Below are positions 17,262-19,748 of a DNA stretch of 64,000 nt, piece by piece. The notes under the pieces were generated by a model that made no database searches, was not told the DNA's origin, and was given only the letters and a program-made list of their open reading frames with translations. Both the position numbers and the translations under genes were made by a program. This stretch comes from Geothrix sp. (GTDB taxonomy: Bacteria > Acidobacteriota > Holophagae > Holophagales > Holophagaceae). Position 1 is the first letter of the stretch. Each line of letters begins with the position of its first letter. The stretch spans positions 1 to 64,000 of the forward strand of contig JAUXSE010000053.1 of NCBI GenBank assembly GCA_030681515.1. Direction: 5' to 3'.

Positions 17262-17615
17262 ATGAACCGCCTGCTTCCCGCCACCGCCATGCTCTTCATG
17301 CTCGCCTGCAACGCTCCGGGGGATGCCGTGCCCACCAAACCCGCCGAACCCTTCAGACCCACCCTGAGCCTGCGTCCCGTGGCCGTTAGCCTGGCCAAGG
17401 GGGCCACCCAGGCCTTCCAGGCGGAGATCAACTACCCCGAGGGCATGCGCTACCTGAAGCAGCCGGTGGCCTGGAGCGTGGTGGAAGCGGGCGGCGGCGC
17501 CATCAGCGGCGCGGGTGTCTACACGGCCCCGGACGCGGTTGGAACCTACCACGTGCAGGTGAAGCGCGAGGATTTCCCGGAAGTCACCGCCACGGCCACG
17601 GTGATGGTGAAGTGA
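17262..17615 (+). CDS. Small lipoprotein with an Ig-like fold
   Basis: 117 residues starting MNRLLPATAMLFMLACNAPG, a lipoprotein signal with lipobox MLAC and predicted lipidated Cys16. The mature part, VAVSLAKGATQAFQAEINYP and later ISGAGVYTAPDAVGTYHV, has the pattern of bacterial Ig-like (BIg2) domains. Probably anchored in the outer or inner membrane. Its stop overlaps the GTG start of the nuclease-like gene (GTGA, 17612-17615), although codon use changes at that point, so the functional link is doubtful. Confidence 0.75.
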   Translation: MNRLLPATAMLFMLACNAPGDAVPTKPAEPFRPTLSLRPVAVSLAKGATQAFQAEINYPEGMRYLKQPVAWSVVEAGGGAISGAGVYTAPDAVGTYHVQVKREDFPEVTATATVMVK

Positions 17616-18721
17616 GCGATTCTTCGAGGACTTGGCAAGTCGCTGCAGGTGACGGGGAGCGAGCCTACCCGGACCTGTGCATCAAATGGTCCGTGATCCT
17701 CGACGGGCCGGGGGATCTCGGCCCCTGGCCGAAATGCAGGCAGGCTCTGCTCGACCGCGGAACCACGCCACAGATGGCTGCGGAGCTTCGCCGCTTCTGC
17801 GAAGAAATTTCGGATGGCGACAGAATCGTTCTTCGTGTTGGCCTCAGCAAAGTGTTCGGAGTGGGGCGCGTGGTTGGTGACTACGAGTGGAATGAAGCCT
17901 TTGGTGATGTGGATGGCTGGCGCATTCAGCATGTCCGCCGTGTTCGATGGCATTGGATCGCCCCCTCCGGCCAACCCATGCAATTCGCTGGAACACCCAT
18001 GAAAATCGGGACAACACAGCGCCTCGACGCCCCCGCAGTATTGACCTGGGCAGATGGTGTTGAAGCGAAGCCCTCAACCGGCCCATTGCCACTGCTCCCG
18101 ACTAGAACCGAGCCGCTCGAACTCGACCGCCTGATGGAGCATCTGTTCTTTCACGGTCTGGGGGCAGCCTCGCTTTCTGAACTTCAATCCAAAGTCTCAG
18201 ATATCATCCAATTGAGCCGCTGGTACGATGCACGCCAAGAGGACCCCTCGGAATCGGAAACGGTCAGCCACCTCGTGATGCCGCTCCTCCGCGCCCTAGG
18301 ATGGTCGGCACAGTTCGCGGCTGTGGAATGGCAGAAACTGGATATCGCCCTGTTCAAGCGCCTCCCCCGAGGAGATGAGTCCCTCGATACGGTGGTGGAA
18401 GTCAAGAAGCGTGGTAGCTCTCTTACCCGAGCACTTGGACAAGCTCAAGGGTACGCAAATGGGTCGGGCCGAGTGAATTGCGGCCGCATCATCCTGACTG
18501 ATGGCATCCGGTACAGCATCTTCGTCAGACGGGAAGATGGCAGTTGGCCCCCCACTCCCGAAGCCTACTTGAATCTGACTCGCCTACAAGACAGCTACCC
18601 CGTGTTGGGGTGCCAGGGTGCCACCGCGGCGTTCATGCTCCTCAGCCGTGATTGGGATGAAGGATTTACATCCGGCCGGAATTCGAAAAAACGAGCGAGC
18701 CGTGTGTCCTGGTCTGGATGA
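17612..18721 (+). CDS. Putative modification-dependent restriction endonuclease: EVE-like domain plus PD-(D/E)xK nuclease
   Basis: 369 residues, GTG start coupled to the lipoprotein gene. Residues about 17-115 resemble an EVE/PUA-type reader of modified bases: IKWSVIL, EEISDGDRIVLRVG, VFGVGRVVGDYEW, VRRVRWHWI. Residues about 212-305 match the N-terminal nuclease of type I restriction subunits: an acidic residue at 214-216, MPLLRALGW, D244 in LDIALF, E263 and K265 in VVEVKK, QAQGYA and ILTDGIRYSIF. The expected pieces of a PD-(D/E)xK active site are therefore present. GC content is visibly lower than in the neighbours, suggesting transfer. No methylase or helicase is adjacent, so a type IV-like enzyme is the best guess. 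Confidence 0.55.
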   Translation: MSDSSRTWQVAAGDGERAYPDLCIKWSVILDGPGDLGPWPKCRQALLDRGTTPQMAAELRRFCEEISDGDRIVLRVGLSKVFGVGRVVGDYEWNEAFGDVDGWRIQHVRRVRWHWIAPSGQPMQFAGTPMKIGTTQRLDAPAVLTWADGVEAKPSTGPLPLLPTRTEPLELDRLMEHLFFHGLGAASLSELQSKVSDIIQLSRWYDARQEDPSESETVSHLVMPLLRALGWSAQFAAVEWQKLDIALFKRLPRGDESLDTVVEVKKRGSSLTRALGQAQGYANGSGRVNCGRIILTDGIRYSIFVRREDGSWPPTPEAYLNLTRLQDSYPVLGCQGATAAFMLLSRDWDEGFTSGRNSKKRASRVSWSG

Positions 18722-18731
18722 AGGTAGAGCC

Positions 18732-19748
18732 ATGAATCTCTATTCCGCCCTGCGCCCGCTGATCTTCCGCCTGGATCCTGAAACCGCGCACAACCTGGCC
18801 TTCTGGCTGGGGGCGCGCGTCTGTTCCTGGCCACGACTGCCGGACCCGGAACTTCCGGCCACTCTGCGCCGCAGCGCCTTCGGCCTGGCCTTTCCCACGC
18901 CGCTGGGCCTGGCCGCGGGCCTGGACAAGGGCGCCACGCTGCTGCCCCTCTGGAAGGCCCTGGGCTTCGGCCATGTGGAGATCGGCACGGTCACGCCCCG
19001 GCCCCAGCCCGGCAATCCCAGGCCGCGCCTGTTCCGCTTTCCGGAGGCGGGCCTGATCCTCAACCGCATGGGCTTCAACAGCGAGGGGGCCGGGATCGTG
19101 GCCGCCCGCCTGCGGAACCGCCCGGCGGACCTCATCGTGGGCGGCAACCTGGGCAAGAACAAGGAGACCCCCGAGGCCCAGGCCCTGGACGACTACCGCG
19201 CCGCCTACCGCCTCATCGCGCCGCAGGTGGACTACACCGCCCTCAATGTGAGCAGCCCCAACACGCCGGGTCTGCGCGACCTTCAGGCCCCCGAGGCCCT
19301 GAAACCGCTGTTGGCAGGAATGCTGGACCTCCGCAGGGAGATGGGCCTGGAACGCCAGCCCCTGCTGCTCAAGCTGGCCCCGGACCTGGCGCCGGAGGAT
19401 CTCGACGCCATCGTGGAGGTGGCCGTGGCATCCGGCATCTCCGGCCTCATTGCCACCAACACCACCCTGGATCGCGGCGTGGTGGAGGAACCGCTGCGCG
19501 CCCAGGTCGAATCCAAGGGCGCGGGCGGCCTCAGCGGCGTGCCCCTTCAGGCCAAGGCCCGGGAGGTGCGCCGCCGCATCCTGACTGCCCTGCGGGGCCG
19601 CCTGCCCCTGGTGGCCTGCGGTGGCCTGGGATCGGCGGAGGATGTGCAAGGCGCCCTGGACGACGGTGCGGCCCTGGCCCAGATCTACAGCGCGCTGATC
19701 TTCGAGGGCCCGGCGCTGATCCAGCGCATCCATGAAGGCCTGATATAG
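18732..19748 (+). CDS. pyrD: Dihydroorotate dehydrogenase, quinone-dependent (class 2)
   Basis: FMN enzyme of pyrimidine synthesis at the inner face of the membrane; passes electrons to quinone. 338 residues from ATG 18732, preceded by an AAGGTAG site. The N-terminal helical extension MNLYSALRPLIFRLDPETAH is the class-2 membrane anchor. GLAAGLDKGA, EIGTVTPRPQPGNPRPRLFR, NRMGFNSEG, NVSSPNTPGLRDLQ (catalytic Ser region) and ACGGLGSAEDV are diagnostic. The quinone is probably menaquinone made through the mqnE pathway next door (inference). Confidence 0.97.
   Translation: MNLYSALRPLIFRLDPETAHNLAFWLGARVCSWPRLPDPELPATLRRSAFGLAFPTPLGLAAGLDKGATLLPLWKALGFGHVEIGTVTPRPQPGNPRPRLFRFPEAGLILNRMGFNSEGAGIVAARLRNRPADLIVGGNLGKNKETPEAQALDDYRAAYRLIAPQVDYTALNVSSPNTPGLRDLQAPEALKPLLAGMLDLRREMGLERQPLLLKLAPDLAPEDLDAIVEVAVASGISGLIATNTTLDRGVVEEPLRAQVESKGAGGLSGVPLQAKAREVRRRILTALRGRLPLVACGGLGSAEDVQGALDDGAALAQIYSALIFEGPALIQRIHEGLI

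Follow-up and report, generated by a model that had tools for sequence, protein, structure and literature searches.

A single-gene insertion in a Geothrix genome encodes a YTH/EVE-like domain fused to an HsdR-type PD-(D/E)xK nuclease, a putative modification-dependent restriction enzyme

Bell, Wolf, and Koonin (2020, PMC7641849) put forward EVE-PD(D/E)XK proteins as putative type IV restriction enzymes, and VcaM4I, an EVE-HNH protein, is a proven modification-dependent restriction enzyme with an EVE pocket that binds a flipped modified cytosine (PMC7897488). EVE or YTH domains are also fused to McrB in McrBC type IV systems, and the YTH domain of Thermococcus gammatolerans McrB is reported in PMC7897488 to bind 6mA DNA. 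Among type I restriction enzymes, the nuclease of EcoR124I uses D151, E165, and K167 (PMC3874165).

We analyzed a window of 64,000 nucleotides from Geothrix sp. (contig JAUXSE010000053.1, positions 1 to 64,000), in which an intact open reading frame at 17612..18721 encodes a 369-amino-acid protein fusing a YTH/EVE-like domain to a PD-(D/E)xK nuclease domain; all features of the window described here lie on the forward strand. The gene begins with a GTG codon that overlaps the stop codon of the upstream gene (GTGA), the N terminus of its product aligns with the start of the family (MxIxxxxIWQ...), and the genome has one copy of the gene. A scan for promoters and terminators at the gene returned nothing above chance. 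All of the motifs that the first-pass annotation had quoted for this protein (GDRIVLRVG, VFGVGRVVGDYEW, D244, E263-V-K265, QAQGYA, and ILTDGIRYSIF) were present in it.

Like the EVE-PD(D/E)XK class, the fusion protein combines an EVE-superfamily reader and a PD-(D/E)xK nuclease in one chain with predicted modification-dependent restriction, but the published work names the class and not this family, and the N-domain here goes unmatched by the Pfam EVE model. Since this architecture was predicted earlier as a class, the novelty of the fusion protein is limited. VcaM4I likewise joins reader and nuclease in a single chain, but its nuclease is of the HNH type and its EVE domain is canonical. The likeness to EVE/YTH-fused McrB lies in a homologous N-domain, whereas the fusion protein is without the AAA GTPase/translocase and the McrC partner and carries its nuclease in the same chain. 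The closest nuclease fold is that of the HsdR N-terminal nuclease (HSDR_N; 3h1t and EcoR124I), which has the same D...ExK order, but the nuclease here spans only about 185 amino acids and is accompanied by neither an SF2 helicase nor HsdM and HsdS. With PDC-S02, an unnamed PADLOC candidate for a defense system of one gene, the protein shares the N-terminal reader domain, and the two differ in that PDC-S02 has an Mrr_cat nuclease rather than an HsdR_N-type ExK nuclease with a QxxxY motif. Two assignments to known groups were rejected: membership in Mrr, due to the ExK motif, HsdR as the nearest relative, and the lack of an Mrr_cat match, and membership in McrBC, due to the lack of an AAA domain. 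The helicase, HsdM, and HsdS that make up a type I restriction system were not found, as Pfam detected no other domains in the 369 amino acids, and the flanking genes encode a lipoprotein-like protein and PyrD; in keeping with the earlier proposal of an enzyme lacking both helicase and methylase, neither is encoded next to the gene.

The N-terminal domain (residues 1-150; 17612..18061) is a modified-base-reader-like domain with a predicted YTH/EVE (PUA superfamily) fold, as indicated by AlphaFold2 modeling, Foldseek, hhalign, and invariant residues. An AlphaFold model of the full protein built with the family alignment reached a mean pLDDT of 92.9 and a pTM of 0.89. When this model was compared with the PDB by Foldseek, YTH domains ranked first (best E 5.8e-4) and HsdR was also matched, with moderate scores for the full model (TM by target length of 0.4-0.6). 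Further matches were 1wmm (TMt 0.61), 2hd9, 2p5d, and 1zce, which we take to be EVE-type proteins (1wmm and 2hd9 as structures of PH1033). The Pfam EVE model (PF01878) matched 0 of 44 family members at E<=0.1, and direct hhalign comparison of the family N-domain with canonical EVE gave only a partial match (41% over 33 columns). The family N-domain did align with the N-domain of McrB-like AAA proteins (98.3%, E 2.5e-14), and the McrB-type N-domain aligned in turn with canonical EVE (93.3%). The proposed kinship with EVE is thus based on the fold together with the McrB-type intermediate, and the domain is best called YTH/EVE-like on the strength of these models. The EVE-like domain named by the first-pass annotation therefore has a counterpart in the predicted structure. 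Within this domain, a DxDGW motif (D99-W103; 17906..17920) is invariant in 44 homologues; considering its conservation, this motif may contribute a base pocket or wedge, and together with W113 it is a candidate part of the base pocket.

The nuclease domain occupies approximately residues 166-348 (18107..18655), as delimited by a model of the C-domain, Foldseek, and matches to HSDR_N and HSDR_N_2. Modeled alone, the C-domain reached a pLDDT of 92.1 and showed the element order alpha-beta-beta-beta-alpha-beta-beta (in C-domain numbering, helix 49-63, strands 71-73, 80-83, and 93-99, helix 109-117, and strands 127-131 and 135-140), which includes the complete alpha-beta-beta-beta-alpha-beta core with D...(D/E)xK of PD-(D/E)xK enzymes. 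The first core helix carries the glutamates of E214-S-E216 (18251..18259), the putative metal-binding D244 (18341..18343) begins a core strand, and the (D/E)xK motif E263-V-K265 (18398..18406) falls within core strand 258-264 or directly adjoins it. The following helix holds a QxxxY-type motif, Q277-x3-Y281 (18440..18454), which presumably resembles that of type I enzymes. E214, E216, D244, E263, K265, and Y281 are each invariant in 44 full-length homologues, so that the motifs picked out in the single protein do not reflect chance, and Q277 is conserved in more than 90%. In a Foldseek search with the C-domain alone, a type I HsdR fragment (3h1t) came first (E 9e-4, probability 1.00), followed more weakly by DrdV, other restriction-like folds, EcoR124I HsdR, and BpuSI. 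Pfam HSDR_N scored 14.6 bits in the window protein, below its cut-off of 25.1, and at E<=0.1 HSDR_N matched 25 of the 44 members and HSDR_N_2 matched 15 (best E 1.2e-6, for HSDR_N_2). With a complete core and an HsdR fragment as the nearest solved structure, the proposed type I-like PD-(D/E)xK domain withstood the structural comparison. The C-terminal tail beyond this domain is non-conserved and was modeled with low confidence.

Searching with a three-sequence alignment identified 49 homologous loci in a genome contig collection and 1 in a viral contig collection; single-sequence scans of both collections with the fusion protein gave no matches, nor did tblastn against a phage collection. In plasmids, tblastn detected a 46%-identical protein on a Cupriavidus metallidurans megaplasmid and a shorter homologue in Photobacterium adjoining an IS3 element. 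Among 396 genomes of the phylum, one other homologue reached both domains (G026), and it is frameshifted. Two weak matches from the phylum search were left out of the family set: L007, an HsdR_N-like stretch matching the nuclease half only, and L009, an open frame without a recognizable relative. The homologues span many bacterial phyla, one ANME-2 archaeon, and one viral contig (L124). The alignment holds 44 full-length members of about 314-377 amino acids (mostly 330-375) with 27-50% identity to the window protein, and the two-domain fusion is fixed, as both domains are retained in all 44. Besides the nuclease residues, G13, R17, G32, G85, D99, D101, G102, W103, and W113 of the N-domain are invariant, and G77, D70, and L74 are conserved in more than 90% of members.

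The family tree resolved into two large groups in which phyla are mixed. The window protein was placed in the larger group on a long end branch (1.44 versus a median of 0.37), leaving its nearest kin unsure. A search of NCBIfam with the fusion protein gave no match, and sequence searches of solved structures with the single protein and with the family profile returned chance matches only. Judged by sequence comparison, the domain pair forms a widespread family that is unnamed in the libraries searched, and none of Pfam, NCBIfam, and PADLOC has a dedicated model for it that scores above threshold. These findings show wide horizontal spread of a family that is compact, without an NTPase domain, and present in many phyla.

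At this locus, the entire fusion gene is an extra segment set cleanly between two neighboring genes, a single-gene insertion. The left flank is a lipoprotein-like gene (17262..17615) and the right flank a pyrD-like gene (18732..19748), both kept in 46 of the 47 genomes of the genus. These two genes are separated by 2-17 bp in 45 related genomes (2 bp in 36), versus 1,119 bp here, which defines an inserted segment of 1,117 bp at 17615..18731 with edges certain to within a base or two. Where sequences were printed, the empty-site junction in the relatives mostly read ...gaaGTGATG. We looked for direct repeats flanking the insertion and saw none, which gives no support for a footprint left by a transposon or integrase. 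The insertion is carried by 1 of the 47 genomes. As first reported from the sequence, the gene is lower in GC than its surroundings, at 59.3% versus 67.2% across the window, and its GC3 is 63.7% versus 88% for the upstream lipoprotein-like gene and 88.8% for pyrD. The suggested recent transfer is consistent with this composition and is supported more strongly by the empty site in 45 relatives, so that recent acquisition is well supported. Found in a single genome of a genus that has been sampled well, the clean insertion neatly illustrates the movement of a lone defense-type gene with no obvious mobile element. Separately, the pyrD start assigned by the ORF caller (GTG at 18618) falls inside the nuclease gene and is too early (window 18618-18731), as the alignment of pyrD starts at the ATG at 18732.

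Neighboring genes of the homologues, assigned by HMM scans, included type I R-M genes near L105, L111, L115, and L117, with the homologue lying inside the type I R-M operon just upstream of HsdR at L111 and L115. We also observed BrxC and PglZ near L098 (a BREX-like locus); a TIR effector, a ThsB-like protein, and a caspase near L099; SspB and PAPS reductase near L087; GmrSD-type genes near L106 and L109; and an ABC-3C component near L101. The frameshifted G026 homologue (L072:5057-12022) is flanked by genes for a DUF1156 methylase and a DUF499 ATPase, which form the core of DUF499 (BREX-related/Hma) systems that earlier work tied to EVE proteins. Mobile contexts comprised a phage tail cluster (L078), a nearby phage integrase (L108), and the viral contig L124. 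Many other homologues are lone genes between unrelated genes and without defense neighbors, as in the window, and most members of the clade holding the window protein are solitary. Defense context is thus recurrent among homologues, a statement of recurrence rather than of measured enrichment, and the family is not confined to housekeeping settings, with several members inside defense systems or mobile elements, in line with the anti-phage role first suggested. Two further neighbors were observed. A small gene similar to uracil-DNA glycosylase (UDG-like) lies directly downstream of two clade-B members in type I R-M loci (L117:10016-10666 and L105:6442-7047), with PF03167 at E 1.9e-4, just below cut-off, in L117 and no Pfam support in L105. 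Near a homologue, the gene at L079:12144-13754 encodes a reverse transcriptase joined to a trypsin-like protease and is possibly a retron-like defense gene.

The two-domain architecture in a solitary gene provides a reader and a nuclease with no cognate methylase, the arrangement of type IV enzymes. We consider it likely, at a probability of about 75%, that the fusion protein is a single-polypeptide, NTP-independent, helicase-free, modification-dependent (type IV-like) restriction endonuclease, and the family probably destroys phage DNA bearing modified bases. We further infer a DNA substrate, dependence on modification, an anti-phage role, and dimerization. In the mechanism we propose, the YTH/EVE-like domain would take up in its pocket a modified base that it flips out of phage or plasmid DNA entering the cell; base capture would position the metal-dependent PD-(D/E)xK domain (E214/E216, D244, E263, K265, Q277, and Y281), which would then cut the DNA beside the mark, probably as a dimer. 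The fusion protein would need no helicase or protective methylase because host DNA is proposed to be without the mark. The host genome contains two HsdM-type N6-methylase genes and one C5-methylase gene, so a generic reader of 6mA or 5mC would risk self-cutting. The mark must then be taken to be more restricted or of another kind, and a target that is hypermodified or limited by sequence fits better than any 6mA or any 5mC. By analogy, the YTH similarity of the N-domain hints at 6mA, and the EVE precedent hints at 5-modified cytosine. The first-pass annotation had proposed an EVE-type reader of modified bases; the fold supports this part of the proposal, and, since the structural matches include both 6mA-type YTH and EVE domains, its leaning toward 5-modified cytosine is only one option. 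If active, the protein would be an anti-phage enzyme open to simple assays, and it might also serve in the mapping of modified bases.

The best Foldseek matches are YTH domains of eukaryotes, which bind RNA carrying m6A, and YTH-like domains are also present in CoCoNuTs, for which RNA targeting is predicted (PMC11090510). The N-domain might accordingly read modified RNA (phage or host transcripts or tRNA) and the nuclease might cleave RNA or associated DNA, as has been proposed for CoCoNuTs. We consider this quite unlikely, as the nuclease groups with those of HsdR and type II restriction enzymes, whose substrate is DNA, the genomic partners of homologues are DNA restriction systems, and the prokaryotic YTH domain cited above is reported in PMC7897488 to bind 6mA in DNA. 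Another view, unlikely in our judgment, is that the protein serves larger machines (type I R-M, BREX, or Hma/DUF499) as an accessory effector, a backup nuclease or sensor rather than a stand-alone enzyme, as might be read from the homologues upstream of HsdR (L111 and L115), in the BREX-like locus (L098), and between DUF1156 and DUF499 (L072). However, the clade of the window protein is mostly solitary, between unrelated genes, type I and type IV systems are often found in the same defense islands (PMC12707154), and BrxU works independently of its neighboring BREX system (PMC12707154).

A toxin-like or housekeeping nuclease, one that would act in repair or cut damaged host DNA and play no part against phages, is the least likely of the alternatives. 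The patchy, horizontally mobile distribution, with the insertion in a single genome of the genus, the defense and mobile-element contexts of homologues, and the lack of an antitoxin partner adjoining the gene all argue against such a role, which could otherwise account for the UDG-like gene after two clade-B members (weakly supported in L117, without Pfam support in L105) and for the occurrence of EVE domains in toxin-antitoxin settings (PMC7641849). The long end branch and the non-conserved, low-confidence tail would also be expected of a decaying insertion, in which the copy here remains in frame but no longer functions. That the open reading frame is intact, every invariant residue is retained, the fold is confidently predicted, and the start codon is coupled within an operon makes decay rather improbable. 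The preferred reading of a stand-alone, modification-dependent restriction endonuclease may be extended in a tentative and somewhat doubtful way to the whole family: its members may be two-domain restriction enzymes, each a YTH/EVE-like reader with a helicase-free HsdR-type nuclease, that read a phage base modification beyond the known type IV range, acting either independently or as an add-on to type I R-M, BREX, and DUF499 systems to catch phages that evade these systems by DNA modification.

Within the same phylum, McrB-like AAA proteins (L003, L005, L006, and L008) share the family N-domain, as does an Mrr-type enzyme (L004, 430-1434). The match of L004 to PDC-S02 was full-length (E 3e-130), indicating that at least this PDC-S02 model consists of the same reader joined to Mrr_cat. 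The best PDC-S02 model matched 28 of the 44 family members, and in the window protein the match covered residues 50-114 of the N-domain only (E 6e-6) rather than the full length. By these sequence matches, the window protein appears to be a sister architecture to PDC-S02 with a different nuclease. One reader domain is thus found with three cutting engines, McrB, Mrr, and the HsdR type, so that the specificity of the reader can be examined apart from the nuclease, and the nuclease apart from the reader. An McrB-like protein encoded in a genome of the same bacterial family (L006:793-3285) carries two readers, one of the family type (residues 236-350) and one canonical EVE (residues 400-527).
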